Virus record (IMG/VR): IMGVR_UViG_3300025719_000011
Span: 1 to 21,389 of that record
From: a virus
Strand: one strand, 5' to 3'
DNA: 21,389 bases
Shown: positions 7,462-21,389 of the stretch, in pieces
Layout of the letters: each line of letters opens with the position of its first letter
Numbering within the stretch: position 1 is the first letter of the stretch
Notes under the pieces: generated by a model
Databases searched by the model: none
What the model was told of the DNA's origin: nothing
The model's input: the letters and a program-made list of their open reading frames with translations, nothing else
Made by a program: the position numbers and the translations under genes

Positions 7462-7490
7462 GTCTTACGGAAGAAAGGATGTATGAGATA

Positions 7491-8118: not shown

Positions 8119-8136
8119 AGTTTTTTGATTAAAGGG

Positions 8137-8165: not shown

Positions 8166-8205
8166 GTATCTATAATAAAGAATTAATTGAAAAAGAGGTA
8201 TGAAT

Positions 8206-8373: not shown

Positions 8374-8385
8374 AAAACTTCAAAA

Positions 8386-8405
8386 AAAGGGTTGACAAAC
8401 CCTTT
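8386..8405. other. Perfect 8-bp palindrome overlapping a -35 box
   Basis: AAAGGGTT (8386-8393) and AACCCTTT (8398-8405) flank GACA. The -35 box TTGACA (8392-8397) lies within it. On the minus strand the stem is followed by a run of T (complement of A382-388 in local numbering), so it could stop antisense transcription. On the plus strand the U tract is only TTT. Confidence 0.55.
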
Positions 8406-8420
8406 CCCACCGTGTATAAT
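8392..8420 (+). promoter_or_regulatory. Early sigma70-type promoter
   Basis: TTGACA (8392-8397), 17-base spacer, TATAAT (8415-8420) preceded by GTG. It drives the gene at 8472. Confidence 0.8.
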
Positions 8421-8441
8421 ACTTAGTATAAAATCAATTAA

Positions 8442-8449
8442 TATAAATA
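8442..8449 (+). promoter_or_regulatory. T4-type late promoter octamer
   Basis: TATAAATA 23 bases before ATG 8472, just downstream of a sigma70-type promoter. The gene at 8472 may be expressed both early and late. Confidence 0.45.
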
Positions 8450-8471
8450 ATCAGCAATATGGGAGAATCCT

Positions 8472-9092
8472 ATGAGTTTAACGATTAAAGGTGACCCATC
8501 TGGCATTGATGTATCAGAGTTTACGGATATTGTCGATACCTATGATGGCAAAAATGCGTTCATTAAGGATGTACTTTATCGGGTAGAGGCTAAGGGTTCT
8601 GTCACTGTTAAGCAGATTGAGGCAGTGGTCAAGGTATTCAAATCTGACCAGTCATATATAGAGAAGAATAAGGAACGCCTTGAAAGAATGGTTCCTATGA
8701 AAGAAGGTAGGAATGAAGTTGTTGGTACCGTAGTTTCTATGAAGGAATACGAGAACCGATTCACTGGTGGTTATGACTTTAAGATGCTCATTGAGGATTT
8801 CAAAGGCTATCGAGTGTTTGGTTCTGTACCAAAATTCTTCCAAGACAAAGATGTTAAGGTTGGGGATTTCGTTAAATTTAGTGCGAAACTTCGCCAAAAA
8901 GAATTAGGTTTTGGATTCTATTCGTATCCAAAAGAGGGTGTTTTTGTTGATGGTGAAACTGCTCAAATCACAAAAGAAGCAATTGAGAAGTTGAAGCCAG
9001 CACCGAAGACTCCAGAGGAAATCATACAAAAGGAGGTGCAGGTTAAAAAAGAATTGTATCAACGTGAGTTGATGGACTTCCTTTCTGCATAA
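8472..9092 (+). CDS. OB-fold-like phage protein, possible ssDNA/nucleic-acid binder
   Basis: 206 residues from ATG 8472 (GGGAG 6 bases upstream). The N-terminal 75 residues are helical and charged. Residues about 80-155 show a five-strand pattern: NEVVGTVVSMKEYEN, YDFKMLIEDFKGYRVFGSVP, VKVGDFVKFSAKLR and LGFGFYSYPKEG. This reads like an OB-fold with the 'GD-x-V-x-F-x-A' strand often seen in phage proteins predicted to bind nucleic acids. The C-terminal 50 residues are Lys/Glu-rich and helical. I cannot name a family. Its strong early promoter plus a late octamer implies high and long-lasting expression, as for a DNA-binding protein needed throughout infection. Confidence 0.7.
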   Translation: MSLTIKGDPSGIDVSEFTDIVDTYDGKNAFIKDVLYRVEAKGSVTVKQIEAVVKVFKSDQSYIEKNKERLERMVPMKEGRNEVVGTVVSMKEYENRFTGGYDFKMLIEDFKGYRVFGSVPKFFQDKDVKVGDFVKFSAKLRQKELGFGFYSYPKEGVFVDGETAQITKEAIEKLKPAPKTPEEIIQKEVQVKKELYQRELMDFLSA

Positions 9093-9096
9093 CGAG

Positions 9097-9222
9097 ATGC
9101 AACCATTAGGTAAAGAAAAACAAAATGCTCTTAGTCGTTCTTGGACTAAAGCAATGCGTAAGGCTGGTAAAGCCAAGGGCAGACGAGATAATAAAAAGAA
9201 GGAGACACAAACTCCTCAATAA
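9097..9222 (+). CDS. Very small basic protein
   Basis: 41 residues from ATG 9097, starting 4 bases after the previous stop. Strongly basic (14 Lys/Arg), with KAMRKAGKAKGRRDNKKK in the second half. Likely a nucleic-acid-binding or ribosome-contacting peptide if translated. There is no clear ribosome binding site, so expression would depend on coupling with the gene upstream. Confidence 0.4.
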   Translation: MQPLGKEKQNALSRSWTKAMRKAGKAKGRRDNKKKETQTPQ

Positions 9223-9352
9223 TGGTGTTGACACGGGCAATGGGGGAAGTCCTGTTTGAGATACTATCGAAAGGGTAAAGAGAAAGTCAAATTGACGTGG
9301 AAACTTTAACCGCAGAACCCACTTATTCAACCTACAATATGGAAGATTATAT

Positions 9353-9727
9353 ATGAGTTGTAAACATAAAGAACCACATACCCATCTGCCACTTTGGCTA
9401 GTAAAAGTAACCTGGCTCGATGCCGCAACCTATAATAATGGTTGGCACGAACTAGATGACCTGCCTATTGAAAACGACTTCTTTGAAACATATGGAATAC
9501 AATTTCTAGAAGATGACCTCTGTATCTACCTCACTGATACAATCCGACCTGATTTCTGCGTAGGTGCTATACACCAACTCCCTAAGGGTATGATAAAATC
9601 CATCACCAAAATCAAGAAGATTAAAGACCTTTGGGGATATGAAAAGAAGGCCAAGGACGAATTAGCCACTATTATACCCGCAAAAGAAACTGCAAAAAAA
9701 GTGAAAAAAGGTGATAAAAGGGGTTGA
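9353..9727 (+). CDS. Phage protein of unknown function
   Basis: 124 residues from ATG 9353 with GGAAG about 8 bases upstream. The first 90 residues look globular (LPLWLVKVTWLDAATYNNGWHELDD ... LCIYLTDTIRPDFCVGAIHQLPKGMI), with a strand-rich pattern. The WLDAATxxxxWxxLDD opening recalls small conserved phage hypotheticals. The tail is Lys-rich (AKETAKKVKKGDKRG). The last codons overlap the promoter for the next gene (TGA stop within TTGACA). No function can be assigned. Confidence 0.6.
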   Translation: MSCKHKEPHTHLPLWLVKVTWLDAATYNNGWHELDDLPIENDFFETYGIQFLEDDLCIYLTDTIRPDFCVGAIHQLPKGMIKSITKIKKIKDLWGYEKKAKDELATIIPAKETAKKVKKGDKRG

Positions 9728-9751
9728 CATTGGGCTGGAATAGTGTATAAT
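9724..9751 (+). promoter_or_regulatory. Early sigma70-type promoter
   Basis: GGGGTTGACA with -35 9724-9729, a 16-base spacer and GTG-TATAAT (9746-9751). An ATGATG lies exactly at the predicted start site (9758). The better start for the gene, with its own ribosome binding site, is 9785. Confidence 0.8.
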
Positions 9752-9784
9752 ATACTTATGATGAAAGAAAATAGAAGGAAAAAT

Positions 9785-10306
9785 ATGATAATATACTTAG
9801 ATATGGATGGAGTAATAGCAGATTTCTTCAGCGGATTAGCGAAGAAACACGGCAAAAGCCACTGGAAAGAAATTGACGATGTTGAGGTTAAAATTGACAA
9901 TCTCAAGGGTACAGATTTCTTTAATACTCTAGACTTATATCCAACTTCAACTGCTCTAGTTGATTTTGTAAAAGAACTCGCTGGTGATGATTGGGGCATT
10001 TGCTCTTCTCCTCTACGAGGCGACTTCAAAAACTCTGCTTTTTGGAAAGCAGAATGGTTAGAGAAGTTTGGGTTTACCCCACCTAAAAAAGAGAACTTAA
10101 AGTTCTCCACAAACAAACCTGTTTATGCTACTAATAAAGCGGGTGTTCCTAATATCTTGATTGACGATAAACCTGAAAATGTTGAGCGTTGGATTGCGAA
10201 AGGCGGTATAGGTATTCGTTACCAAGCGAATGAAGATAGCCTAGATGACTTGAAAAAGATGTTGTCTATGAATGTTGAAATGAGCCAAATGCTTGCAACA
10301 GTGTGA
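9785..10306 (+). CDS. HAD-family 5'(3')-deoxyribonucleotidase-like protein
   Basis: 173 residues. Motif I YLDMDGVIADF (nucleophile D6, D8), motif II CSSP (73-76, S74/S75) and motif III/IV LIDDKPENVERW (D127, D128) with a Lys between them match the NT5C-like nucleotidase group, which dephosphorylates (deoxy)nucleoside monophosphates. The segment after motif I (residues 14-65) can form the small helical cap. Start at ATG 9785 behind AGAAGGAAAAAT; the in-frame ATG 9758 coincides with the predicted transcription start and would be leaderless. With RNR and PurM present, a role in balancing or recycling nucleotide pools is likely; the substrate cannot be read. Followed by a terminator. Confidence 0.78.
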   Translation: MIIYLDMDGVIADFFSGLAKKHGKSHWKEIDDVEVKIDNLKGTDFFNTLDLYPTSTALVDFVKELAGDDWGICSSPLRGDFKNSAFWKAEWLEKFGFTPPKKENLKFSTNKPVYATNKAGVPNILIDDKPENVERWIAKGGIGIRYQANEDSLDDLKKMLSMNVEMSQMLATV

Positions 10307-10341
10307 ATCGAGTAGTTTTAAAAAATCAAAAATAAGTACCT

Positions 10342-10366
10342 AGGGATGATAAATATCATCCCTTTA
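10342..10366 (+). terminator. Probable terminator hairpin
   Basis: 9-bp perfect stem AGGGATGAT (10342-10350) with ATCATCCCT (10355-10363), loop AAAT, followed by TTAATTG. The U tract is short, so strength is moderate. It sits between the nucleotidase gene and the next promoter, in the 10307-10415 gap. Confidence 0.6.
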
Positions 10367-10380
10367 ATTGTGTAAAAAGT

Positions 10381-10409
10381 TTGACTATACCAGAAGAAAG
10401 TGATATAAT
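10381..10409 (+). promoter_or_regulatory. Early sigma70-type promoter
   Basis: TTGACT (10381-10386), 17-base spacer, TATAAT (10404-10409). The predicted start site falls on or next to the ATG of the following gene. Confidence 0.65.
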
Positions 10410-10415
10410 AACTAT

Positions 10416-10655
10416 ATGATGAAATTAAATAAAGACGTTACAAAGATTTTAGAGTGGTTATCTACTCTAATTGTGGTTACTGGAGTGTTCTTGAATTCTC
10501 TAGGGTATTACCCAGAAGGACCTATCATTATGACGATAGGAAGTATCTTTTGGATTATCGTTGGGTTACGTTGGAAGACACCTTCGATTATTATTACAAA
10601 TACAGTAATTTTCATATTGTCCTCTACTGGACTTATGTATACTTACTTAGGATAA
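10416..10655 (+). CDS. Small multi-pass membrane protein
   Basis: 79 residues with three hydrophobic segments: about 16-31 (STLIVVTGVFLNSLGY), 36-52 (PIIMTIGSIFWIIVGLR) and 57-76 (SIIITNTVIFILSSTGLMY), with short basic loops. Start at ATG 10416 or the adjacent ATG 10419. There is no ribosome binding site, and the upstream promoter would start transcription at the ATG itself, so it may be leaderless. It directly precedes the lysozyme gene (15 bases), so a holin or holin-like role is plausible but not shown. Confidence 0.6.
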   Translation: MMKLNKDVTKILEWLSTLIVVTGVFLNSLGYYPEGPIIMTIGSIFWIIVGLRWKTPSIIITNTVIFILSSTGLMYTYLG

Positions 10656-10670
10656 AGGAGTAAATTTTTG

Positions 10671-11279
10671 ATGGTCAAGTTTCTAGCAACAACAACTTTT
10701 ATAGGTATGTTAGGATGGGGTGTCATTGCTAATGGTGGTGTAAAAGCCACTCAAGCAAGCATTCAAAGTCTTTGGCAACCCGAAGAAAAGATTGTTATAT
10801 TTGTTAAGAGTATGGAGAATTACCCACTTCTAATGGGTCGTGTTACGCTGAATGAATATGATGACGTTGGTCATATTGCCGCAGGATATGGAACAAGAGC
10901 ATATCTAATTACAGTTCAAACCGAAGAAGAAGCCTCACGAGTGATGAAGATAAAATTGCAAGAGGCTAATATGTTCATCGATAGACTTGTAAAAGTACCA
11001 TTAAAAAAGCACGAACGGGATGCCTTAGTGTCTCTAGTGTATAATGTTGGACCGACTAGGTTCAGTAAATCAAGAGCCTTAAAGTGCCTAAATAAAGGTG
11101 ATATGAAATGTTTCTTAGAACAATCATTTCACCATAAAAAGGGATTTGTTAGGGTACGTAATAAGATACACAAAGGACTAGTAGCAAGACGGGCCCTAGA
11201 AAGTAATATTTTCCAGAACGGAGACGAAATGGGTTTCTACTGGATTAATCTGAACCCGAGTGGACATTTAACAGACTAG
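10671..11279 (+). CDS. GH24 (T4-type) lysozyme / endolysin with N-terminal membrane anchor
   Basis: 202 residues from ATG 10671, ten bases after AAAGGAG. An N-terminal hydrophobic segment (about 4-21) suggests a signal-anchor endolysin exported by Sec. GH24 features: candidate catalytic Glu E49 (KSMENYP), D65 in EYDDVGHIAAGYGT, the helical core ALVSLVYNVGPTRF and the C-terminal GLVARRALE, the usual GLxxRRxxE signature. By alignment to T4 (YTIGIGH), the catalytic Thr26 position reads Ala70 and His31 reads Thr75, which differs from the standard E-D-T triad. The product cleaves peptidoglycan MurNAc-GlcNAc bonds at lysis. The small membrane protein just upstream could be its partner. Confidence 0.82.
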   Translation: MVKFLATTTFIGMLGWGVIANGGVKATQASIQSLWQPEEKIVIFVKSMENYPLLMGRVTLNEYDDVGHIAAGYGTRAYLITVQTEEEASRVMKIKLQEANMFIDRLVKVPLKKHERDALVSLVYNVGPTRFSKSRALKCLNKGDMKCFLEQSFHHKKGFVRVRNKIHKGLVARRALESNIFQNGDEMGFYWINLNPSGHLTD

Positions 11280-11287
11280 GAGTTATT

Positions 11288-11407
11288 ATGTGGTATTATA
11301 AGTGTGAGGCTGGACAGTATATGGAAGATACATTGTGTCGATTACTCACCGTGATAATTAAGCATCGGTTTCAACATCTAATTAAAGGCGAAGGTTTTAA
11401 AGATTAG
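11288..11407 (+). CDS. Very small protein of unknown function
   Basis: 39 residues from ATG 11288 behind AGGAG (5 bases), starting 8 bases after lysozyme. Contains two Cys (6, 17) and a Leu/Ile-rich helix (TLCRLLTVIIKHRFQHLI). It ends directly before the promoter at 11410. The good ribosome binding site and placement argue for expression; nothing is known of its role. Confidence 0.5.
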   Translation: MWYYKCEAGQYMEDTLCRLLTVIIKHRFQHLIKGEGFKD

Positions 11408-11409
11408 GG

Positions 11410-11438
11410 TTGACACGCATCATTTTTTAGTGTATAAT
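11410..11438 (+). promoter_or_regulatory. Early sigma70-type promoter
   Basis: GGGTTGACA with -35 11410-11415, 17-base spacer, GTG-TATAAT (11433-11438). It drives the glycosyltransferase cassette that follows. Confidence 0.8.
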
Positions 11439-11458
11439 GTATATTAAATGAGAATGAG

Positions 11459-11944
11459 ATGTATATCTGTATATGCAACGCGGTCAAAGAAGGTGACAAA
11501 GAACGATACCATCTAATTGGCACAAATTGTGGAAGATGTATGATTGATAATATTAATGAGAAGGATGATAAAATTATGGCAGAGGATAAAAAGCGAAAAG
11601 TCGAAGTAGAAGAGTCAGCAGGTTACGATAACTATTTGGGCGAAGTCGATGATTCCTCGCTACCAACTACCCTTGATGGCTTTATGGGTGGTGAGAAAAT
11701 CAATACAGAAGTTGATATTGATTCTTGGCGTGCCCATTGGAAACAAATGCCCTCTTTTACTCAAGAAGAGAATAAGGCTTTCAAGCAAATTATTATGTCC
11801 TTCAGAACGAAGGAAGACTACGAAGAATTTCAAGTCAAACTTGGTCAGCGAATGACTGTAAAAACCAAGTCTGCTTGGTATCCCCACCTTGATGTAACCG
11901 CTAATTCATTACTCCGTTGGATGGAGGACGAGAATAATGATTGA
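11459..11944 (+). CDS. BFD-like [2Fe-2S] N-terminus joined to a phage module
   Basis: 161 residues in one uninterrupted frame. Residues 1-28 read MYICICNAVKEGD ... GTNCGRCM, matching bacterioferritin-associated ferredoxin (CxC near the start, then a Gly-rich turn with CGxC; ligands C4, C6, C24, C27), but about 14 residues shorter between the Cys pairs. From Met40 (ATG 11576, preceded by AAGGA) the sequence is a different module: an acidic linker, then WRAHWKQMPSFTQEE ... FRTKEDYEEFQVKLG and KTKSAWYP. I know this module from phage proteins that stand alone or follow ParB-like domains. The internal start could yield a separate 122-residue product. It overlaps the next gene by 8 bases and opens the modification cassette. 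Confidence 0.65.
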   Translation: MYICICNAVKEGDKERYHLIGTNCGRCMIDNINEKDDKIMAEDKKRKVEVEESAGYDNYLGEVDDSSLPTTLDGFMGGEKINTEVDIDSWRAHWKQMPSFTQEENKAFKQIIMSFRTKEDYEEFQVKLGQRMTVKTKSAWYPHLDVTANSLLRWMEDENND

Positions 11945-12806
11945 GCGAATCTACATTCCAACAGTTCGCAGGACCGATAACCAAATTACATTTAACAATC
12001 TTCCCGATGAATTAAAGGAAAGAGTTGTTATGGTTGTCGAACCTGCGGAACGACACCTCTATAATTATGATTGCGAGTATCTCGAAATCCCAGAGAAGAT
12101 TGTTGGTACTTGGACTCAATTAGCAGAGACCCGTTTGTTTATCCATAAACACGCTGGCAAAATCAAATATTGTGTTGCAGATGATGACCTTATTATCAGA
12201 CGAAGGAACGCTAAGTATTGGACTGGAAAGTCTAATATGGAGAAGTCCAAGCAAACTGCTACTAAAGACGAAATTCTAGATATGTTTGATACGTTCAGTA
12301 ACTGGTTCGATGAACCAGATATTGGTATTGCAGGATGCTCTGATTGTTGGGCACCACCAGCGGCTACAGAATATGTAGATACAAAGGGCATATATTCTAT
12401 CGTGTTCTATGATGGAAGAATGATATCGAAGGTGATTGATGATATAGATATTACCTCATTACGTATTGCAGAAGATGTTCTTTTTCTTTACGAGTGCCTA
12501 AGTCGAGGTATCAACACCAGACAGTCAACCGAATGGATATACGACAACAAATCAATGACTGATAAAGACCTCCAAGACACACGGGTAGTATGGACAGGTA
12601 TGTTCGATGGAGATTCTTCTGAGAAGATTAAAAATTACTACCAGAGTGACGAACATTATAAAGCAATGAAATTTATTCAAAACAAATTCCCTCACGGAAT
12701 GAAGATTTTTGAGAAGGATGGGAAATTGAAAAATACCAAGTACTGGAAAAAAGTTTATAAACCATTGGAATCTACAACTGATTCCTCATTAAGTGACTTT
12801 ATGTGA
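11937..12806 (+). CDS. GT-A-type glycosyltransferase-like protein
   Basis: 289 residues starting inside the end of the previous gene (ATGATTGAG). The N-terminus reads IYIPTVRRTDNQITFNNLP, then a strand (RVVMVVEPAE) and KYCVADDDLII, with D82-D84 as the metal/nucleotide-sugar DxD of GT-A enzymes. A second acidic site lies in IAEDVLFLYECLSRG, resembling the acceptor-side ED-x-DL motif of family-2-like enzymes. I recognise this layout from phage glycosyltransferase-like proteins close to the TET/JBP-associated type, though less clearly than its neighbour at 13398. Donor and acceptor are unknown; modified DNA bases or surface glycans are both possible. Confidence 0.62.
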   Translation: MIERIYIPTVRRTDNQITFNNLPDELKERVVMVVEPAERHLYNYDCEYLEIPEKIVGTWTQLAETRLFIHKHAGKIKYCVADDDLIIRRRNAKYWTGKSNMEKSKQTATKDEILDMFDTFSNWFDEPDIGIAGCSDCWAPPAATEYVDTKGIYSIVFYDGRMISKVIDDIDITSLRIAEDVLFLYECLSRGINTRQSTEWIYDNKSMTDKDLQDTRVVWTGMFDGDSSEKIKNYYQSDEHYKAMKFIQNKFPHGMKIFEKDGKLKNTKYWKKVYKPLESTTDSSLSDFM

Positions 12807-12818
12807 CGAAAGGAATAT

Positions 12819-12941
12819 ATGTTCAGAATGTGGATGGCCATAATATTAACAGTAGCACTATTATTCGTATTTGCAACAATGGGACCGCACTATACATTGC
12901 CAGACGAGGCTTTTGTTGGAAATAAAATCTTAGAAAAATAG
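12819..12941 (+). CDS. Single-pass mini membrane protein
   Basis: 40 residues from ATG 12819 behind AAAGGAA. A hydrophobic segment covers residues 5-20 (WMAIILTVALLFVFAT), followed by a short polar tail. Twelve bases after the glycosyltransferase stop. It may be an anchor or an uncleaved signal. No family. Confidence 0.5.
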   Translation: MFRMWMAIILTVALLFVFATMGPHYTLPDEAFVGNKILEK

Positions 12942-12948
12942 GGGCCTA

Positions 12949-13242
12949 ATGGATGAAAATAGATTTTACATTAAACGCCCAGACCATTTAACTAAATGGT
13001 TAAAAGAACAAGCAAATGGCTGGGTGCAAGAACAAGTAGACGAGCATTTTGAATGTGAGAATTCAGACGATTTGCCTGAAGAGTATATGCAACAAGTTTT
13101 AGACGAGTGGAGTAATCAAGAAATAATATTCCACTTGAGAATTATAAATGAGAAGCCCAGTGACGATTACTTCTCAGCGGCACTATTAAACATCATACGC
13201 CGTTGGGAGATTAAAAACGATACTATGATAAGGGAGATTTAA
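12949..13242 (+). CDS. Phage protein of unknown function
   Basis: 97 residues from ATG 12949, seven bases after the mini membrane protein, preceded by GGGG (AGGGGCCTA) as a weak ribosome binding site. Acidic and helix-rich, with many Trp (KWLKEQANGWVQEQVDEHF, LDEWSNQEIIF, IIRRWEI). No Cys cluster, no membrane segment. No family recognised. It lies within the modification cassette and abuts the next gene. Confidence 0.55.
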   Translation: MDENRFYIKRPDHLTKWLKEQANGWVQEQVDEHFECENSDDLPEEYMQQVLDEWSNQEIIFHLRIINEKPSDDYFSAALLNIIRRWEIKNDTMIREI

Positions 13243-13410
13243 ATGAGTACAATTATCAATTTTTTGTCTGGTTTAGTCTTAATAACTTGTTTATCATTTG
13301 GTGGTTTGTTGATGTATGATACCTATCAAGGTAGAACATTAGCGGCCAGTTTAGCAGAAGCAATTTTAGGAGATGTTATGAAATTAAAGGAGTCAACGTG
13401 CAAGCAGTAA
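13243..13410 (+). CDS. Small membrane protein
   Basis: 55 residues from ATG 13243, immediately after the preceding TAA, with AGGGAG 7 bases upstream. One hydrophobic segment (about 5-25, INFLSGLVLITCLSFGGLLMY), then a helical polar tail (LAASLAEAILGDVMKLKE). The last 13 bases overlap the GTG start of the glycosyltransferase gene, and its own KLKES codons form that gene's ribosome binding site. Confidence 0.55.
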   Translation: MSTIINFLSGLVLITCLSFGGLLMYDTYQGRTLAASLAEAILGDVMKLKESTCKQ

Positions 13411-14339
13411 CAAAACACGACCCGCAGTATCCACTTTACACAATTAGTAAAGGTCGGGCTGATTCTATGATAACGTCAAAGTCGTTGTCAAGAATGAAGA
13501 TACACCACTATATCGCCATAGAGCCTCAAGACGAAGAACCGTATGAAAGGGCTCTTGTTAAATTTGGATTAAGTGACTATGCCACGTTACTAATTCTACC
13601 ATTCTCTAATCACGGAGATGGTCCAGGTCGAGCGAGAAATTGGTGTTGGGACCATTCAAAAGATATTTTGAAGACAGAATGGCATTGGGTTATGGATGAT
13701 AACATTGCTGATTTTTATCGACTTCAAAAGAACTTTAGATATCGTGTTGAAAATGGAGCACTGTTTAGGTCGTGTGAAGATTTCTGTAATAGGTACAGTA
13801 ACGTCAAGATGGCAGGTCTTCAGTATAGGTTCTTTATAGCACCTAATCAGAAGTATCCACCCTATGTAACTAACACTCGAATCTATTCTTGTAATTTAAT
13901 CAAGAATGATGGTGTCCATAGATGGCGTGGTCGATATAACGAAGATACCGATTTATCGCTGAGGATACTGAAAGATGGGCATTGCACAATTCAGTTCAAT
14001 CATTTTCTACAAGGAAAATGTGCTACTCAAACAGTTTCTGGTGGTAATACAGAAGAGTTTTATCACGCAGAGGCGACTGATAACGAAGCATTCAAAGACA
14101 CTGGATACAATGCTGAGGGAACTATCAAGAAGAGCCAAATGCTCGTGGATATGCACCCAGACGTTTGTAGAATAGTTTGGAAGTATGGAAGATGGCATCA
14201 TTATTGTGACTATGGTCCGTTCAAAAAGAACAAGTTGATATACAAGCCAGAGTACGCAAATGGTGATTTAATTGCAAAAGGTGATAACAACTACGGATTG
14301 AAATTGACATCCACCACCAAGCAAGGAGTACGTGTATGA
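13398..14339 (+). CDS. TET/JBP-associated-type glycosyltransferase (TAGT-like)
   Basis: 313 residues with a GTG start at 13398 behind AAGGAG (7 bases). The N-terminal half shows the pattern I know for the TAGT family: YPLYTISKGR, a strand with IAIEPQ (phage members read VVEPQ), LLILPFSN with a Gly-rich GPGRARNWCWDH, and HWVMDDNIADFYRL with D100-D101 as the DxD metal site. Downstream RYNEDTDLSLRIL supplies the acceptor-side acidic residues. This family was predicted to glycosylate oxidised or hydroxymethylated bases in phage DNA. No TET/JBP dioxygenase lies in this window, so the DNA target is an inference; surface glycan transfer cannot be excluded. It overlaps the next gene by 4 bases. Confidence 0.75.
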   Translation: MQAVTKHDPQYPLYTISKGRADSMITSKSLSRMKIHHYIAIEPQDEEPYERALVKFGLSDYATLLILPFSNHGDGPGRARNWCWDHSKDILKTEWHWVMDDNIADFYRLQKNFRYRVENGALFRSCEDFCNRYSNVKMAGLQYRFFIAPNQKYPPYVTNTRIYSCNLIKNDGVHRWRGRYNEDTDLSLRILKDGHCTIQFNHFLQGKCATQTVSGGNTEEFYHAEATDNEAFKDTGYNAEGTIKKSQMLVDMHPDVCRIVWKYGRWHHYCDYGPFKKNKLIYKPEYANGDLIAKGDNNYGLKLTSTTKQGVRV

Positions 14340-14746
14340 AGAAAATAGGATTTACTTGCTCTTCGTTTGATTTGCTTCACGCAGGGCATATTGCTATGTT
14401 GAGAGAATCCAAAGAAAATTGTGAGTGGTTGATAGTCGGACTGAATGTTAATCCAGTCAATAAATCTCCTCTCCAATCAGTGGTCGAAAGGTTCACTCAA
14501 CTGAGTGCCGTCAAATATGTAGACGAAATCGTGCCATATAATACTGAGGAAGAGTTGATAGATTTGATTCAGTTGTACCGAGTTGATATAAGATTTATCG
14601 GTGAGGACTATAGAGATAAGCCGTTCACTGGAGACACATTGGAAGGCATCGAGGTGTTTTATAACAGGAGAGACCATAGATTCAGTTCTTCTGGCCTGAA
14701 AAAAAGAGCAAAAGAATCTGATATAATTGGGAAATTACCTGCGTAG
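14336..14746 (+). CDS. Nucleotidyltransferase (glycerol-3-phosphate/pantetheine cytidylyltransferase-like)
   Basis: 136 residues in the HxGH superfamily. GFTCSSFDLLHAGHIAML carries H15-A-G-H18, and RFSSSGLKKR (115-124) is the family's second motif (RTEGISTTxLxxR-like). IGEDYRDKPFTG in between fits the base-binding turn of TagD/ECT-type enzymes. Such enzymes make CDP- or ADP-activated alditols and sugars. It starts inside the GT stop (ATGA overlap), so it may supply the activated donor for the glycosyltransferases. The exact nucleotide and substrate cannot be read from sequence. Confidence 0.78.
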   Translation: MKKIGFTCSSFDLLHAGHIAMLRESKENCEWLIVGLNVNPVNKSPLQSVVERFTQLSAVKYVDEIVPYNTEEELIDLIQLYRVDIRFIGEDYRDKPFTGDTLEGIEVFYNRRDHRFSSSGLKKRAKESDIIGKLPA

Positions 14747-14770
14747 TATTTGTAGTTGGGAATGGTCAAA

Positions 14771-14778
14771 TATAAATA
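14771..14778 (+). promoter_or_regulatory. T4-type late promoter octamer
   Basis: TATAAATA, immediately upstream of a sigma70-type promoter (starting at 14780) ahead of nrdA. Confidence 0.4.
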
Positions 14779-14779
14779 G

Positions 14780-14808
14780 TTGACAGCCTCGAGATTACAG
14801 TGTATAAT
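14780..14808 (+). promoter_or_regulatory. Early sigma70-type promoter for nrdAB
   Basis: TTGACA (14780-14785), 17-base spacer, GTG-TATAAT (14803-14808). The leader of about 90 bases up to ATG 14904 contains the palindrome ATATTAATTAATAT (14846-14859), a possible operator or weak RNA hairpin; nothing else is recognised in it. Confidence 0.8.
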
Positions 14809-14903
14809 ACTAACTGAGTCAAAATAGCAGTCCTGAAAAATGGGAATATTAATTAATATGGGTATCAATACACAGATATCCTTTATGGGTTTATGGAGTT
14901 GAA

Positions 14904-17237
14904 ATGGTCGGAATAAGTGAGAATCAAGTAAGGAAAAGAGATGGGACGTTAGAACTCCTAGATTATGATAAGATACACAAGATGTTGGAATGGTGTTCCA
15001 ACGGACTTAACGTATCGGTATCAGATACAGCGATATCGGCACAAATCAAGATTGTCAATAAGATTTCTAGCCACGACATTCAGCAAACCTTAATTAAATC
15101 CGCGGCGGAAAAGATTTCGCCAGAGACACCTGACTATGATATTTTTGCTGGAAGATTGCTTGTTACAAATATGCGTAAACAGGTATATAATAGTATCGCT
15201 CCTACTCCGTTTCTGGAGTATATCAAAGGACACGTAGAACGAAAGTTATACTCACCAGAGATTTTGGAAAAGTATACTGAAGAAGAGATTACACAATTAG
15301 GTACTCATTTGGATTATGAAAATGATATGCACAGAGGATATGCCTCAGTCGTTCAATTAGAATCCAAGTATCTCATTAAAGACGTAAAGGATGACAGGCT
15401 AGTTGAAATGCCTCAAGAAACCTTTATGATTATCCCTATGGTTATCTTTGCAGATGAAGGAAAGAATAGGGCACAATTAGTTATAGATTTTTATACAGCA
15501 TTAAAGAATGATGAGATGAGTTTGCCTACTCCAGTTATTTCTGGTGTTCGTACTCAACTCAAAATGTTTAGTTCGTGTTGTAAGATTAAGATGGGTGACA
15601 ATGCAGAATCAATTCTTGCGGCTGAGTATGCCACAAGTTTGATGACAAGTCAGAGGGCTGGTATTGGAATTGATATGGGTCCAGTTCGTGGTGTTTTGGC
15701 GCCAGTTAAAAATAATACTGTAAAGCACACTGGTGCATTACCAATTCTTAAAGCAATTGAAAGTGTATCTAAGCAGTTTACACAAAATTCATTGAGGACT
15801 GGTGCTACTGTAGTTAACTATCCTATTTTTAATTGGGAGATTATGGATGTCCTTGAGTACAAGAACAATCAAGGCTCTAACACTACACGAGCAAGGTTCA
15901 TTGATTATTCAATTGGAGTTACGAGTTTATTCATTGAGCGATTGATGAAGAAAGAAGATTTCACGTTGTTCTCTGCGGATGAAGTTCCAGAATTGTTCGA
16001 GCATTATGGAGACAGTAGAAACTTTGATGCCGCTTATCTAAGATATGAACACAAACGAGGAATACGAAAGAAAACTGTACCAGCAGTTGAAATCTTTAAT
16101 AAACTGATTAAGGAACGAGTAGGTACAGGTCGAATTTATATTCATTTTATTGATAACATTAACCGACAAGGTATGTTCAAAGAGCCTGTCACACAGACTA
16201 ATCTTTGTTCTGAGATATTCTTGCCAACTAAAGCAATGACATTTGAGGGACTTAAACGTACCAAAAAAGAAGCCATTGCCGACTATGATACAGAAAATGG
16301 AATGATTTCATTATGTATTCTTGGTTGTATTAACTTTGGTAAGTTGGCAAACATTACAAGGTTGGATGCGTTGACCGCATTAATGGTTCGATTCTTGGAT
16401 AATCTAATTGATATTCAAGAGTACCCATTGGATGCCGCTGAGTACCCAACTAGAGCATATCGATTCTTAGGAATTGGTATCAGTGATTTCGCCCATTTCT
16501 TAGCAAAGAATGAGGCACGACTGGGAACATTAAAGTCCCTTGAACTATCACACAAATGGGCAGAGAGATTTCAATATGGACTTATTAAAGCGAGTATGGA
16601 ACTGGCTAAAGAACGTGGTCCCTGCGAAGCATTTCAACTGAGTAAATATTCAGAAGTTAAACTACCAATCGACACTTATAATAGAAACGTGGATAAAATC
16701 TACGAGAATAAATTGTTGTGTGATTGGGAACGATTAAGGACACAGATTAAGAAACACGGAATGCGACATACTACGTTGTCTGCTATTCCACCTACGGCAT
16801 CAAGTTCGCTTGTGTCCAATTCGACACAGGGTATTGACCCAATTCAGTCTGTTACAGATACGTTTGAGTCTGCCGCATATACAGTTAAATCTCTTGTTCC
16901 TGATTGGGAAAAAGAGCCATTCTATATGAAAGCGTGGGAGTTTCCGAATAACGACAGTTCTGATTACATCAAATTGATGGCAATACTTCAGAAATTTATA
17001 GACCAAGGAATGAGCGTCAATCAATGGTATGATTTGACGAAAATTGAAGGGAAGGTACTTGATGCAAATCGAGTCAAGAGGGATATCCTAACAGCGTATA
17101 AGTACGGACTAAAAAGTCTATATTACATTCGCTCTAAAGATAAAGAGAATACGAGTGAACAATTACATAAACAAGAGGCTACGGATGATATTCCAATTGA
17201 GGAAGATGGATGCGAAAGCGGTGCGTGTGCTATATAA
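14904..17237 (+). CDS. nrdA: Ribonucleotide reductase class Ia, large subunit
   Basis: 777 residues (E. coli NrdA 761). It reduces NDPs to dNDPs for phage DNA. An ATP-cone starts the protein (VRKRDGTLELLDYDKIHKML). Active-site parts: C225 in FSSCCKI and its partner Cys (C471 in ISLCILGC), the catalytic loop N433-L-C435-S-E437, and RTQIKKHGMRHTTLSAIPPTASSS near the substrate-binding end. The C-terminal CESGAC (C770, C775) is the swinging disulfide reduced by thioredoxin/glutaredoxin, matching the phage glutaredoxin upstream. GGAG lies 5 bases before ATG 14904. nrdB follows after 12 bases. No intron or intein is visible. Confidence 0.96.
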   Translation: MVGISENQVRKRDGTLELLDYDKIHKMLEWCSNGLNVSVSDTAISAQIKIVNKISSHDIQQTLIKSAAEKISPETPDYDIFAGRLLVTNMRKQVYNSIAPTPFLEYIKGHVERKLYSPEILEKYTEEEITQLGTHLDYENDMHRGYASVVQLESKYLIKDVKDDRLVEMPQETFMIIPMVIFADEGKNRAQLVIDFYTALKNDEMSLPTPVISGVRTQLKMFSSCCKIKMGDNAESILAAEYATSLMTSQRAGIGIDMGPVRGVLAPVKNNTVKHTGALPILKAIESVSKQFTQNSLRTGATVVNYPIFNWEIMDVLEYKNNQGSNTTRARFIDYSIGVTSLFIERLMKKEDFTLFSADEVPELFEHYGDSRNFDAAYLRYEHKRGIRKKTVPAVEIFNKLIKERVGTGRIYIHFIDNINRQGMFKEPVTQTNLCSEIFLPTKAMTFEGLKRTKKEAIADYDTENGMISLCILGCINFGKLANITRLDALTALMVRFLDNLIDIQEYPLDAAEYPTRAYRFLGIGISDFAHFLAKNEARLGTLKSLELSHKWAERFQYGLIKASMELAKERGPCEAFQLSKYSEVKLPIDTYNRNVDKIYENKLLCDWERLRTQIKKHGMRHTTLSAIPPTASSSLVSNSTQGIDPIQSVTDTFESAAYTVKSLVPDWEKEPFYMKAWEFPNNDSSDYIKLMAILQKFIDQGMSVNQWYDLTKIEGKVLDANRVKRDILTAYKYGLKSLYYIRSKDKENTSEQLHKQEATDDIPIEEDGCESGACAI

Positions 17238-17249
17238 CGGAGAACTAAT

Positions 17250-18413
17250 ATGAGTAAAATATTCGACTTGGGAGAAACCATTAACAGTAAGAAGACTAGA
17301 CTGTTTTTTGGTAAAGGTTCCAATCGTAGAAACATCCAAACTTATCACGACCCAAAATACAAGTGGATTTTAGATTTCGCTGAAGAACTTAGGGCGATGG
17401 GTAATTGGAGTAAGAACGAGATTGACCTCTCGAAAGAAAAACGAGACTTTGATGGTCTTGATGATGCTGGAAGGCATATCTTTGAAGCGGGTCTTAAATT
17501 CGCAATCACATTGGATTCTTGTGCAGGACGAGCCCCTTTAGAGTTATTTAACAAGGGTGGAATATCTAACAATCCTGAGTGGGAACTCTATCTAACAAAT
17601 CACCAGAATAACGAATTACTGCACAGTGAATCCTATACAGAAATGGTTAGGGCAGTATATAATGATGTAGATGATTTCATCGACTCAATTATATCAGACA
17701 AGTATATCCAAAACAGAGCCACTAGTATTCTTAGTGCGTTTGATTGGTCTACGGAAGTGTGTGAGAAAAACGAAGCAAATTTGACAGCGAAGAACAATGG
17801 AATGCCAAAACCATACCCAGAAGTTAATGAGAAAATGCTGAAGACGGCAGTTTATAAATCTGCATTGACTATCAATATGTTTGAAGGAATTAGGTTCTTT
17901 GCTACGTTTGTGACGAACTGGAGTTTCTCTGAGCAACCTGTTAAATTGATGCAGGGTTGTAGTAATATCTTCAAGTTGATTGCACGAGATGAAATGATTC
18001 ACCTTGATGTATTCCAAAGGGTATTGATGATGATGAGGAATGAAAAGTCAGAAGGATTCCAAGAGATTGTTGAAGAACTCGAAGAAGAAACTTATCAGAT
18101 GTTTAAAACCTCGTATGACGAAGAGATTGAATGGATTGATTATCTATTCTCTAAAGGTACTCCATTAATTGGTATGAATGATACTATTCTGAAACAATAT
18201 ATGGATTACATTTTTGCCATACGTATGAAGAATATAGGCTTGGACCCACAGAAAATTGGAATAGAATCAAGCCCATATAACCCCGTTCCTTGGGTTGATA
18301 ATTATCTTGATTCGCAACATATTAAATCAGCACCTCAAGAGATTGAGAGTGTGAACTATGTTGCCGCAATCGATAACAGCAAGGACGTGGATTTTGCAAT
18401 GGATGACTTATAG
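17250..18413 (+). CDS. nrdB: Ribonucleotide reductase class Ia, small subunit
   Basis: 387 residues (E. coli NrdB 376). It houses the diiron-tyrosyl radical cofactor. Ligands appear in order: D89 (TLDSCAGR), E122 and H125 in NNELLHSESY with radical Y129 (E. coli E115, H118, Y122), E212 (NMFEGIRFF), and E248 and H251 (ARDEMIHLD). All four helices' signatures are present, so this is a tyrosyl-radical type and not a Tyr-less variant. The acidic C-terminus (DVDFAMDDL) is the tail that docks to NrdA. Overlaps nothing; 12 bases after nrdA, so one operon. Confidence 0.96.
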   Translation: MSKIFDLGETINSKKTRLFFGKGSNRRNIQTYHDPKYKWILDFAEELRAMGNWSKNEIDLSKEKRDFDGLDDAGRHIFEAGLKFAITLDSCAGRAPLELFNKGGISNNPEWELYLTNHQNNELLHSESYTEMVRAVYNDVDDFIDSIISDKYIQNRATSILSAFDWSTEVCEKNEANLTAKNNGMPKPYPEVNEKMLKTAVYKSALTINMFEGIRFFATFVTNWSFSEQPVKLMQGCSNIFKLIARDEMIHLDVFQRVLMMMRNEKSEGFQEIVEELEEETYQMFKTSYDEEIEWIDYLFSKGTPLIGMNDTILKQYMDYIFAIRMKNIGLDPQKIGIESSPYNPVPWVDNYLDSQHIKSAPQEIESVNYVAAIDNSKDVDFAMDDL

Positions 18414-18428
18414 AAAGGTAATTATGTG

Positions 18429-18620
18429 ATGTTTGGGATGAAAAAATTGCGTGAGAAGTTTAAAATCAAAACTTGGAAGGCAGAGTATGAGTATGAAAGG
18501 GTCAGAGCGGATTCTAACGAAGCAAAATTGAATTATTTGTTATCGGGAATCAATGATGTGGTTAAAAAAATAGATGATAATGGAGCAGTAAGATGGGAAA
18601 AGAACAGCAGTATGTTTTAA
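18429..18620 (+). CDS. Small basic helical protein
   Basis: 63 residues from ATG 18429 (or GTG 18426, slightly better spaced from AAAGG at 18414-18418). Lys-rich N-terminus (FGMKKLREKFKIKTWKAEYEYERVRADS), then helix-forming sequence with a heptad-like pattern (LNYLLSGINDVVKKI). Overlaps the GroES-like gene by 28 bases in another frame. No family recognised; not convincingly a membrane protein. Confidence 0.5.
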   Translation: MFGMKKLREKFKIKTWKAEYEYERVRADSNEAKLNYLLSGINDVVKKIDDNGAVRWEKNSSMF

Positions 18621-18937
18621 AGCCAATAGGCGACCAAATAGCACTCATCCGAGATGAGATTGTAGAGAAGACCGAGAGTGGTATTATACTACAAGAAGGT
18701 CGTAGAGTTGTTCCAGGTTCTGGAACAGTGTTCGCTATTGGTAGTTATGTAGAAGAGGTCAAAGAGGGAGATAGAGTTTATTTCTCTGCTATGGCTGTAG
18801 CGAAAGCGGGTAGGACAATCGAAGTCGAAGGTCAAGAATTCCTCATTATAAAAGAAGAAGACTTGTACTGTACGGTGACTCCTACTGTCAAACTACCTGA
18901 ATTATCCTTGGTACCAAGCGAGGAGTACGAACCTTAA
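18593..18937 (+). CDS. 31: GroES/gp31-like co-chaperonin
   Basis: 114 residues. The GroES fold is recognisable: LKPIGDQIALIRDEI (first strands), the mobile-loop region VEKTESGIILQEGRR (24-38) that contacts the GroEL apical domain, GSGTVFAIGSYVEEVKEGDRVYFS (central strands with the VKxGDxVxF motif) and EFLIIKEEDLYCTV at the end of the fold. A C-terminal extension of about 20 residues (PTVKLPELSLVPSEEYEP) goes beyond the usual 97-residue GroES. T4 gp31 replaces GroES to fold the capsid protein. Start at ATG 18593 overlaps the previous gene; its ribosome binding site (GGAG) lies within that gene. Confidence 0.82.
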   Translation: MGKEQQYVLKPIGDQIALIRDEIVEKTESGIILQEGRRVVPGSGTVFAIGSYVEEVKEGDRVYFSAMAVAKAGRTIEVEGQEFLIIKEEDLYCTVTPTVKLPELSLVPSEEYEP

Positions 18938-18950
18938 TAGGAGTTCAGTT

Positions 18951-19142
18951 ATGTGGTCTACATTAATAGGATTTTTTAAGAAAATGAATTATGTTAAAGG
19001 CGTAACGAAATATAGTAAAGATTCTAAATGGGACGGATATCAACATCTTGACAAAGAACGTATGGCGGTGAGAGCCGAGAATCGTAACGGTACTCAGGAG
19101 TGGTTAAGAAAAGATAGACTTGACAGGTCTATCAATAAGTAG
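18951..19142 (+). CDS. Small basic protein of unknown function
   Basis: 63 residues from ATG 18951 behind AGGAG (18940-18944). Starts with an aromatic/hydrophobic stretch (MWSTLIGFF) and then becomes very basic (RMAVRAENRNGTQEWLRKDRLDRS). No Cys and no clear domain. It follows GroES by 13 bases. A promoter begins inside its 3' end (19120). Confidence 0.55.
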   Translation: MWSTLIGFFKKMNYVKGVTKYSKDSKWDGYQHLDKERMAVRAENRNGTQEWLRKDRLDRSINK

Positions 19143-19148
19143 TATAAT
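19120..19148 (+). promoter_or_regulatory. Early sigma70-type promoter
   Basis: TTGACA (19120-19125), 17-base spacer, TATAAT (19143-19148), reaching past the end of the previous gene. It drives the gene at 19186. Confidence 0.72.
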
Positions 19149-19185
19149 AGTACCATACTTAATAATCTTGTAAATAGTGAGTGTT

Positions 19186-19416
19186 ATGGATAAGAAACCA
19201 GAGGACTTGAAGTATGGCATTACGATGGAAGATATTGAGGACGCATTCCTCAAAGGAACAGAAGCAGAAATATTAGAAAAAGCGACTGATTTGCTAGATG
19301 ATACACAAAATCACTTCAAAAGACAGTCCAAAACCTTAGATGTCTGCTTCAACCTAGAAATAGTGAAAATAATGCTAAAAAAGTGCAAAAAAGGGTTGAC
19401 AACGAGTACAGGATAG
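19186..19416 (+). CDS. Small helical protein of unknown function
   Basis: 76 residues from ATG 19186. An in-frame GTG at 19177 is possible, but GTGAGTG leaves no better ribosome site. Acidic N-terminal half (MEDIEDAFLKGTEAEILEK) and basic C-terminal half (LKKCKKGL), mostly helical. Two Cys (about 54 and 67). The stop overlaps the promoter at 19396-19424. No family recognised. Confidence 0.55.
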   Translation: MDKKPEDLKYGITMEDIEDAFLKGTEAEILEKATDLLDDTQNHFKRQSKTLDVCFNLEIVKIMLKKCKKGLTTSTG

Positions 19417-19424
19417 TGTATAAT
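19396..19424 (+). promoter_or_regulatory. Early sigma70-type promoter
   Basis: AAAAAAGGGTTGACA with -35 19396-19401, 17-base spacer, GTG-TATAAT (19419-19424). It drives the secreted glycine-zipper gene. Confidence 0.82.
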
Positions 19425-19454
19425 GTACTTATAAATGATGATAAGGAGTGTTAA

Positions 19455-20099
19455 ATGGTAAAAATAAAGACAATTAAGACAGTTCTAGCGACTTCACTTT
19501 TAGCGATATCGAGTTTTGCCCACGCTAATATTGTTCCAGTAGCAACTGAGAAAATAAAGAAAATCAAGCCACTGTATGCACTTGCATTAGTGATGTTCGC
19601 TGGCACAGTTCTTTATGCAAATAATGCCCACGCTGAAGCAGGTAATGGGATTATTTCTTACCACGACACTGCACAAGTGATGAATGTTGAAGCAGTATAC
19701 CGAACAATATATCAAGATGATGGCACAACACACTGTCATACACATTCGGGTAATTATGAAATCGAGGGTGATGGCAATCCTAATAACGAGATTATCGGTG
19801 CGATTATCGGTGGTGTTCTAGGCAATCAGATTGCGAAGAACAAGTCCCACAGAGGACCTGCTACGGTAATTGGTGCAATAGGTGGTGCTGTAATTGGCTC
19901 TAGCCAAGACAAAAATCGAGTAGGAACGTCTACTCATACTGTATGTGACAAAAACTATAACACAATCAAGCGAGAAGAAGTCTGGTTTTATAGAGTAACA
20001 TACAATCTTAATGGTCAAAGGTTCGTTATGGACCATAAACGTAGACCCCAATTTAACGAAAGAAAGGTGTTAATAAAAATTCAAGTATTAGGTCGATAA
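19455..20099 (+). CDS. Secreted glycine-zipper protein (17 kDa surface antigen-like)
   Basis: 214 residues from ATG 19455 behind AAGGAG. Signal peptide (VKIKTIKTVLATSLLAISSF, cleavage after AHA at about residue 24). A second hydrophobic stretch ending in AHA (40-60) follows, unusual for this family. Residues 112-148 are a glycine-zipper 2TM module (EIIGAIIGGVLGNQIA ... VIGAIGGAVIGSS). The C-terminal part (REEVWFYRVTYNLNGQRFV) matches the family's beta segment 'YxVxYxYxGxxy'. Related bacterial proteins sit in the outer membrane. Two Cys (94, 164) may pair. No lipobox Cys follows either signal. In a phage it may modify the host envelope or exclude other phages; this is inference. Confidence 0.75.
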   Translation: MVKIKTIKTVLATSLLAISSFAHANIVPVATEKIKKIKPLYALALVMFAGTVLYANNAHAEAGNGIISYHDTAQVMNVEAVYRTIYQDDGTTHCHTHSGNYEIEGDGNPNNEIIGAIIGGVLGNQIAKNKSHRGPATVIGAIGGAVIGSSQDKNRVGTSTHTVCDKNYNTIKREEVWFYRVTYNLNGQRFVMDHKRRPQFNERKVLIKIQVLGR

Positions 20100-20103
20100 C
20101 CAC

Positions 20104-20132
20104 TTGACAAGGACCTAATTTTCGTGTATACT
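20104..20132 (+). promoter_or_regulatory. Early sigma70-type promoter
   Basis: TTGACA (20104-20109), 17-base spacer, GTG-TATACT (20127-20132), five bases after the preceding gene. Confidence 0.72.
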
Positions 20133-20154
20133 TTAGACTTAATGGAGATATATC

Positions 20155-20376
20155 TTGAAACGAACAAGAGCAGAAGAAAAAGCAGTCCAAATGGAGTCTG
20201 TAAAATCAAAATTAGACGAGTTAAAAGATAGAAAAATGACACCAAAGAAAGCAAATTTAGTAAAGCATTTAAAGAATTTGAAGAAATGGAATGAAAGAAA
20301 GAGCCACGCAGTAAAGCGAGGTAAAACACAAAAAATTGTAGTTCCGATTGAAGTATTGGAAAGTGAGGTAGAGTGA
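20155..20376 (+). CDS. Small basic protein with TTG start
   Basis: 73 residues from TTG 20155, eight bases after GGAG. An ATG at 20191 is the alternative. Strongly basic helical protein (RAEEKAVQMESVKSKLDELKD; KKANLVKHLKNLKKWNERKSH), resembling short nucleic-acid-binding or ribosome-associated proteins. Its last bases overlap the HD hydrolase start (GTG 20373 next to TGA). Co-transcription with that gene from the promoter at 20104 is likely. No family recognised. Confidence 0.55.
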   Translation: MKRTRAEEKAVQMESVKSKLDELKDRKMTPKKANLVKHLKNLKKWNERKSHAVKRGKTQKIVVPIEVLESEVE

Positions 20377-20951
20377 CAGATTATAGCAAAGAAATGATTG
20401 CAAAGGCAGAGATTTTCGCAGGAAAAGCCCACGAAGGGCAAATGCGTAAGGGTGGTAATGATGTCCCGTATATCGCTCACCCTATCGCTGTAGCAAGCAT
20501 TTTAAAGGCAAATAATGCGACTACTGAAGCAGTTCTAGGTGGACTGCTTCACGATGTTGTAGAAGACACTCCAGTGACGTTAAAAGAGATTGGAGATGCT
20601 TTTGGACTCGGTGTACAGAATTTAGTCGAATATGTGACAGAAGAGAAGACCAGCGATGGTGAGAGACTCCCTTGGAGAGACAGAAAAGTCGCATATCTTG
20701 AAATGATTGGAAAAGCACCATATGATGCAGTTCTAATTGCCGCAGCCGATAAAGTTGCAAATGCTCGTGATATGGTTACTGATTACCAAGTGCTTGGTGA
20801 GGAGTTGTGGAATATATTCAATGCTGATAAAGAAAATCAGTTTTGGTATTACACCACTTTAATTAGCATATTTGAGATAAGAAGCATTCCACCAGGAATG
20901 ATACTTGAATTGAAGGATGCCTTGCGTATTCTCCATAACGAATATGTATAA
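20373..20951 (+). CDS. RelA/SpoT-type HD hydrolase (small alarmone hydrolase-like)
   Basis: 192 residues, about the size of stand-alone SpoT-like hydrolases such as MESH1 (179). HD motifs match in order: R25 and H36 in RKGGNDVPYIAHP, H60-D61 and E64-D65 in LLHDVVEDTP, and D126/N130 in AADKVANARD. No synthetase, TGS or ACT domain. Such enzymes remove the 3'-pyrophosphate of (p)ppGpp with Mn; some relatives act on other nucleotides (e.g. NADPH). Start GTG 20373 overlaps the previous stop. A phage-made hydrolase could keep growth-like metabolism going by lowering alarmone; substrate remains inference. Confidence 0.82.
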   Translation: MTDYSKEMIAKAEIFAGKAHEGQMRKGGNDVPYIAHPIAVASILKANNATTEAVLGGLLHDVVEDTPVTLKEIGDAFGLGVQNLVEYVTEEKTSDGERLPWRDRKVAYLEMIGKAPYDAVLIAAADKVANARDMVTDYQVLGEELWNIFNADKENQFWYYTTLISIFEIRSIPPGMILELKDALRILHNEYV

Positions 20952-20954
20952 ATA
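20947..20954 (+). promoter_or_regulatory. T4-type late promoter octamer upstream of the tmRNA region
   Basis: TATAAATA overlapping the end of the HD hydrolase gene. No convincing sigma70 promoter is seen between 20952 and 21107, so this is the best candidate for transcription of the small ORF at 21023 and the tmRNA. Confidence 0.45.
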
Positions 20955-21022: not shown

Positions 21023-21106
21023 ATGGGTATGAATAAATGTTGTTATAAATGGATGTTTATGATGACAATGATTGGTATTTTATTTGGTAGGTACGTCTGC
21101 ACGTAG
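21023..21106 (+). CDS. Possible 27-residue hydrophobic peptide
   Basis: ATG 21023 lies 9 bases after AAGGAG. It encodes MGMNKCCYKWMFMMTMIGIL plus FGRYVCT, a single hydrophobic segment with three Cys. It ends just before the tmRNA acceptor piece. It is too short to judge; the good ribosome binding site is the main support. Confidence 0.35.
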   Translation: MGMNKCCYKWMFMMTMIGILFGRYVCT

Positions 21107-21198
21107 GTGCAAATATAACGTATTAATGAGGTTATAACAGCGTAAATTTAATTTACTAGTTATTTAAGACACGGGTGCAAATCCCGTCACCTCCACCA
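21107..21198 (+). ncRNA. ssrA: tmRNA acceptor piece (5' limit approximate)
   Basis: Contains P2 3' strand (21149-21158), T arm (21171-21187), 3' acceptor strand (21188-21194), discriminator A and encoded CCA ending at 21198. The T loop reads TGCAAAT where TTCAAAT is usual. A small hairpin TATAAC (21114-21119) with GTTATA (21131-21136) may mark the start region of this piece; the exact 5' end is not visible. Confidence 0.85.
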
Positions 21199-21281
21199 TA
21201 AGAATCCTTGTTTTAGTATGCCTGTCCGACAAGTACAGCGTCCGGGCCACGTATGACTACTAGAATGAGGATTTTTATGAT
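21199..21281 (+). other. Intervening segment of the permuted tmRNA precursor
   Basis: Joins the CCA end to the 5' G. Bases 21197-21208 pair with 21268-21279 in twelve consecutive pairs (one G-U), stacked on the acceptor stem with only one mismatch (21196/21280) between. Inside, TAGTA (21214-21218) can pair with TACTA (21258-21262) and CTGT (21222-21225) with ACAG (21235-21238). This segment would be removed by processing at both ends. Confidence 0.8.
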
Positions 21282-21389
21282 GGGGGTGTACTAGGATTCG
21301 ATTAGATAGTGTGGTAAATTATTCGCTCGACAACGTATACAAATGTCGCAAACTTTGTATAAATAAATGTAACTGTAGATTCAGAGACA
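21282..21389 (+). ncRNA. ssrA: tmRNA coding piece (partial): tRNA-like 5' end, PK1 and start of tag region
   Basis: Begins GGGGGTG, a 5-base connector, then GGATTCGAT. An H-type pseudoknot (PK1) can be drawn: CGAC (21328-21331) with GTCG (21345-21348), and TATACAAA (21336-21343) with TTTGTATA (21354-21361). This is positions 47-80 from the 5' end; E. coli PK1 spans 49-79. The resume codon should follow within about 10-15 bases. With U-A at -5/-4 as in E. coli, the best candidate is GTA at 21375, giving V-D-S-E-T and then the window end. The frame is not certain. Confidence 0.8.

Follow-up and report, generated by a model that had tools for sequence, protein, structure and literature searches.

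The stretch of DNA analysed here, referred to as the window, is the whole of IMG/VR virus record IMGVR_UViG_3300025719_000011 (G000; 21,389 bases), and it ends within a genuine, circularly permuted tmRNA gene that is carried by a T4-type phage not yet in culture. A first-pass annotation had proposed a permuted tmRNA in a T4-type phage from the letters of the window; a covariance model, ARAGORN, the tag reading frame, a partner-swap test of the P2 helix and T4 structural genes now concur with that proposal.

A permuted tmRNA gene cut by the end of the record

Comparison of the window with Rfam release 15 returned a sole match above cut-off, RF04321 (tmRNA_permuted), at positions 21139-21372 on the plus strand. 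This match has a score of 64.1 bits, against a gathering score of 47, and an E-value of 1.5e-10, computed for the two strands against the full set of 4227 families. The alignment covers model positions 1-175 of 213 and stops where the record stops, the window end falling inside the tag. ARAGORN made no tmRNA call in the window because the record is cut within the tag, and not through absence of the gene.

The end of the gene was read beyond the window, on a contig from metagenome 3300025770. With the product of the upstream HD gene as protein query, two contigs from this metagenome were found: L124, which is 99.96% identical to window positions 7250-20807, and L003 (IMGVR_UViG_3300025770_000022; 59,006 bases, also handled as G002), which has three mismatches to the window's last 723 bases, of which two fall within the tmRNA's intervening segment. 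By these identities the window, L124 and L003 are of the same phage population. ARAGORN calls a full permuted tmRNA at L003:440-832, where L003:440 is equivalent to window position 21106, and RF04321 matches this copy over its full length with 79.1 bits. The covariance-model search suggested in the first-pass annotation thus supports the gene both in the window and at full length. As completed on L003, the gene includes the tag and its stop codon, the pseudoknot PK1 and a likely second pseudoknot, and is followed by an Hsp20 gene.

Architecture of the gene and tests of its structure

The gene is arranged in the order acceptor piece, intervening segment, coding piece (Table 1). The individual parts named in the first reading are present: an acceptor stem with G3-U70, the T arm, the encoded CCA, and GGATTCGA at its standard position, ending at 21301. 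The acceptor strands GGGGGTG and CACCTCC pair with a G-U as the third pair, and G3-U70 is the alanine identity signal; the alanine identity elements of the RNA are therefore present as GGGGGUG/CACCUCC plus ACCA. The G at position 55 of the T loop matches the alpha_tmRNA consensus. The intervening segment is predicted to form a single long hairpin, stacking onto the acceptor helix, with an energy of -28.0 kcal/mol alone and -46.5 kcal/mol with the acceptor stem, and the precursor as a whole folds better than shuffled sequences (z = -3.4). P2 does join the two pieces, as had been described, but it is longer than the 10 bp originally given to it, with 8 + 10 + 4 bp separated by internal loops. 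PK1 occupies tmRNA positions 47-80, close to that of E. coli at about positions 49-79, in keeping with the distance from the 5' end noted earlier. The likely second pseudoknot lies 3' of the tag on L003 (TGAGG...AGGGGTTA CCTTA...TAACCCCT); it was read by eye and is kept in relatives.

Table 1. Features at the 3' end of the window, with positions numbered from its first base.
Feature	Position	Strand	Details and basis
nrdB	17250..18413	+	Anchor for finding relatives with a downstream permuted tmRNA
HD_4-domain phosphohydrolase (SpoT/MESH1-like), upstream of the tmRNA	20373..20951	+	PF13328, 1e-16; phage homologues annotated SpoT-like
T4-late-promoter-like box TATAAATA, over the stop of the HD gene	20947..20954	+	Sequence
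Small ORF MGMNKCCYKWMFMMTMIGILFGRYVCT, 27 codons, strong ribosome-binding site AAGGAG	21023..21106	+	Directly upstream of the tmRNA, after the TATAAATA box
Permuted tmRNA (ssrA) gene, cut at the record end within the tag	21106..21389	+	RF04321; ARAGORN on L003; 5' boundary as set nominally by ARAGORN
P2 3' strand, in the acceptor piece	21139..21167	+	Duplex with 21302-21327, -16.2 kcal/mol
T arm ACGGG-TGCAAAT-CCCGT	21171..21187	+	5-bp stem; sequence and model alignments
3' acceptor strand CACCTCC	21188..21194	+	Sequence and model alignment
A73 (discriminator) and encoded CCA, closing the acceptor piece	21195..21198	+	CCA 21196-21198; sequence and model alignment
Intervening segment (83 nt), predicted to be excised during maturation	21199..21281	+	Between CCA and G1
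Start of the coding piece, with acceptor strand GGGGGTG and the D-loop-like TACTAGGATTCGA	21282..21301	+	G1 = 21282; acceptor strand 21282-21288
P2 5' strand	21302..21327	+	Pairs with 21139..21167
PK1	21328..21361	+	CGACA (21328-21332)/TGTCG (21344-21348); TATACAAA (21336-21343)/TTTGTATA (21354-21361)
Tag reading frame, cut at the record end	21369..21389	+	GTA ACT GTA GAT TCA GAG ACA

The P2 strands of 12 related phages were paired with one another in all combinations. Own partners gave a mean of -15.4 kcal/mol versus -9.7 kcal/mol for swapped partners, and 0 of 20,000 permutations were as good; for the P2 of the window, its own partner came first in both row and column among the 12. Kinship may inflate tests of this type; here it counts against the effect, because near relatives also give good swapped partners. 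Stem 1 of PK1 is altered on both sides between relatives, being CGACA/TGTCG in the window, CGTGA/TCACG in L129 and, as read by eye, CAAC/GTTG in L130 and L149. An automatic search for PK1 gave implausible pairings for L130 and L149 and none for L151, and these three outcomes were excluded from the evidence. Five related T4-type contigs (L134, L136, L139, L140 and L144) carry a permuted tmRNA in which the resume codon lies 59-61 bases from G1 and PK1 is seemingly missing.

The tag reading frame

The tag frame that is cut at the window end continues on L003 with TAC GCA CTA GCC GCA TAA, to read (VT)VDSETYALAA-stop; the downstream stop that the first-pass annotation suggested looking for is thus this TAA, and a further pseudoknot-like element is found as well. 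ARAGORN places the resume codon at GTA 21369-21371, with the tag VTVDSETYALAA. This start was not taken outright, since the homologous resume site in relatives is 6 bases later: the aligned relatives all share TAA(C/A/T)(T/C) ahead of the codon at that site, and tags read from it are VDSETYALAA, ANTEAYAIAA, GNTDTYALAA, GNDYNYALAA and DNVNYALAA. A resume codon at 21375-21377, after TAACT, is more likely by this alignment and would give the 10-residue tag VDSETYALAA, the leading VT codons being uncertain. Ten residues is the commonest tag length in the tmRNA database (PMC11915505).

Genomic context

The T4-type hallmark genes on the window and on L003 show, by gene content, that the contigs belong to a T4-type phage. 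The window encodes T4 RNase H, an ATP-dependent ligase, a T4-type topoisomerase subunit (gp52), PurM, lysozyme, NrdA, NrdB, a GroES-like protein and the HD_4 protein, and L003 encodes baseplate wedge and hub proteins, gp32, a gp23-like capsid protein and thymidylate synthase. By the baseplate wedge protein, the closest cultured phages, at about 35% identity, are Mosig, Melnitz, HTVC008M and a Desulfovibrio phage. Two genes resembling TET-associated glycosyltransferases lie at window positions 11937-12806 and 13398-14339, the second matching PF20691 with 1.8e-38, suggesting that the phage may carry modified DNA bases.

The product of the HD_4 gene is a possible alarmone hydrolase, which would put two translation-stress functions side by side. 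The late-promoter-like box over the stop codon of this gene is a candidate promoter of the small ORF at 21023 and the tmRNA; four such T4-late-like boxes were seen, versus about 1.2 expected per strand by chance. ARAGORN finds no tRNA genes in the window, in keeping with the original reading, and none were found on L003. SmpB was not found on the four contigs searched, which are fragments, so the RNA probably uses the SmpB of the host.

Proposed function and alternative explanations

Taken together, the data are best explained by a permuted tmRNA gene, complete and maintained, in an uncultured T4-type phage, a reading that we hold with high confidence. In its transcript, GGGGGUG and CACCUCC would pair as the acceptor stem, on which the hairpin of the intervening segment would stack. 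The tRNA-processing enzymes of the host would then excise the intervening segment, with RNase P cutting 5' of G1 and exo- or endonucleases acting at the CCA, and the acceptor and coding pieces would stay joined through P1 and the long P2. The mature RNA would be charged with alanine by virtue of G3-U70 and A73, be bound by host SmpB and enter stalled ribosomes, where the (VT)VDSETYALAA tag would be added; its ALAA end would direct the tagged chain to host proteases, and ribosomes would be recycled during infection. The analysis itself shows the sequence and structure of the gene, the specificity of its pairing, the tag frame, the phage context and the conservation among relatives; from these we infer transcription, processing, charging, use of SmpB and a benefit to the phage, which would in this way bring its own ribosome rescue.

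An alternative is that the phage RNA acts as a decoy, competing with host tmRNA for SmpB and so blocking trans-translation, as has been proposed for the RNA of mycobacteriophage DS6A, which has a tRNA-like domain only (PMC4131195; PMC11915505). A decoy would have no need of PK1, a resume codon, a tag frame or a stop codon, yet these are kept across relatives, and we regard this alternative as improbable. Slightly less probable again is a tmRNA pseudogene or decaying remnant, recently acquired from a host and without function. The bit scores are indeed below those of bacterial-like copies, and in some relatives certain parts can no longer be recognised, for example PK1 in L136 and L140 (resume codon at 59-61). 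However, the pairings are all kept despite changes on both sides, divergent relatives retain an open tag frame that finishes in ALAA, and the genomic place of the gene is conserved. Although some mobile elements insert into ssrA, the chance that the contig represents bacterial chromosome, or else a prophage adjoining the host's own ssrA, is negligible, given T4-type replication and virion genes on both sides, the HD gene upstream and Hsp20 downstream, the lack of an integrase among the ORFs scanned, and the matching position of the gene on the contig of a related phage. The preferred reading is therefore of a gene that is kept and is evolving as a functional RNA, retaining its pairing and its ALAA end, and not of a stray host fragment.

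Permuted tmRNA genes in related phages

Relatives were collected by NrdB, giving 73 contigs, many of them fragments, and a permuted tmRNA was present in 26 of these (23 by ARAGORN and 3 by RF04321). In L125, the nearest distinct relative, NrdB is 91% identical, blocks of DNA are 75-85% identical and the tmRNA is at the homologous place. A scan of IMG/VR by T-arm/acceptor pattern gave at least 120 loci, and ARAGORN called at least 83 permuted and at least 2 standard tmRNAs among those listed. A two-piece ssrA has been published for Melnitz, a T4-type methylophage, in a study that counted 133 unique tmRNA structures across 402 phages; 53 of these were predicted to be two-piece, and 50 of those came from marine or aquatic samples (PMC9004378). 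The rarity claimed in the first-pass annotation, which took the gene for an uncommon case, is wrong, because of this precedent and the frequency of permuted calls in IMG/VR. Permuted phage tmRNA is thus already known in kind, and the gene in the window adds another member; the present data correct the impression that such genes are rare and extend the carriers of two-piece tmRNA to a T4-type lineage, as yet uncultured, that has diverged deeply from Melnitz and from the pelagimyophages. When the region or the tmRNA was compared with the DNA of cultured phages, only short matches were obtained. An exact scan of bacterial genomes with the T arm matched mainly Elusimicrobia, most of which have one-piece tmRNAs, which argues against a near bacterial source.

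Protein genes within the intervening segments of relatives

The intervening segment ranges from 7 to 246 nt, with a median of 73 nt in the 76 distinct genes fitted. That of the window has no ORF of 25 codons or more; protein genes were found in the segments of relatives and of Melnitz. In nine contigs of four sequence types (L220-L228), the segment is filled by a conserved gene for a 53-residue basic CxxC protein (MKKKRVGKRGR...CTLCT.IRWMGN...; for example L220:2501-2659), which spans from about 13 bases past the CCA to a stop codon lying two bases short of G1. In eight other contigs (L229-L236) this gene occurs on its own. Changes between nested copies, counted separately for the three codon positions, include 5/4/13 and 7/5/19, and this third-position excess shows selection on the protein. 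At L113:1960-2178 the segment holds a 73-residue ORF unrelated to the 53-residue protein, with stand-alone homologues in L249-L251 that are 48% identical.

In Melnitz, an unannotated ORF (L246:46096-46224) with the strong ribosome-binding site TTGGAGAAG opens within the segment and extends into the coding piece; its predicted peptide begins MFKWLSKTRLVVITRDYFRERNRKADAK. This ORF is conserved in about 18 IMG/VR contigs, L253-L268 among them, with one in-frame 24-base insertion. Changes are mostly at the third position (9/8/20, counted only up to G1), and the ORF ends before G1 in L266 and L268. Further ORFs, of 64 and 47 residues, lie in the segments of L129 (13600-13791) and of L011 and L035. 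The segment of L128 (11294-11427) is 134 nt long and highly structured, and has no Rfam match except tmRNA; an RNase-P-like word within it, GAGGAAAGTC, was dismissed as lacking Rfam support.

These observations lead us to favour, with some reserve, the view that T4-type phages whose tmRNA is permuted use the intervening segment to house small protein genes, a single transcript then carrying an mRNA nested in a split structured RNA. The only inserts of this kind given in the tmRNA database paper are a tRNA and a repeat element (PMC11915505), and the papers searched contain no description of protein genes nested in such segments. Together with the relatives that lack PK1, the nested genes raise testable questions about how tmRNA is processed and which parts a phage tmRNA needs.

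Comparison with known tmRNAs

The L003 gene shares its architecture and the T-loop G55 with the alpha_tmRNA of Alphaproteobacteria and matches that model (RF01849) over its full length, but barely exceeds the cut-off (51.4 versus 50 bits); the window copy, shortened by the record end, scores 40 bits. The resume codon is GCA in alpha_tmRNA and GTA here. The beta_tmRNA model (RF01850) also aligns over its full length, yet its 51.5 bits for the L003 gene are below the cut-off of 84. The beta model scores higher than the alpha model for the relatives L151, L128 and L125, and L151 (G015) is above the beta cut-off (93.7 versus 84 bits). An alphaproteobacterial origin is accordingly not established by model score alone, the two models scoring the L003 gene at 51.4 and 51.5 bits.

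The Melnitz gene (MZ577097, 45984-46436) has in common with that of the window the permuted order, the acceptor stem, GG(n)TTCGA, a long P2, an ALAA-ending tag and a T4-type phage as carrier. On rechecking, it scored 113.4 bits with RF04321, versus 79 bits for the L003 gene, and 106.7 bits with alpha_tmRNA, so that Melnitz is clearly of alpha type in contrast to the L003 gene. The Melnitz tag, ANDNYVPVDYALAA, is unlike that of the window, and a glutamine riboswitch adjoins the 3' end of the Melnitz gene, whereas none was found for the gene in the window. The Melnitz intervening segment holds an ORF, unlike that of the window, and the Melnitz gene lies beside a late-transcription coactivator, whereas the gene described here is downstream of nrdB and the HD gene. 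Phage-borne ssrA genes are also found in mycobacteriophages (Bxz1, Wildcat and others) and in Bacillus phage G (PMC4131195), but these tmRNAs are one-piece, with no two-piece record in that source, and have unrelated hosts and tags.
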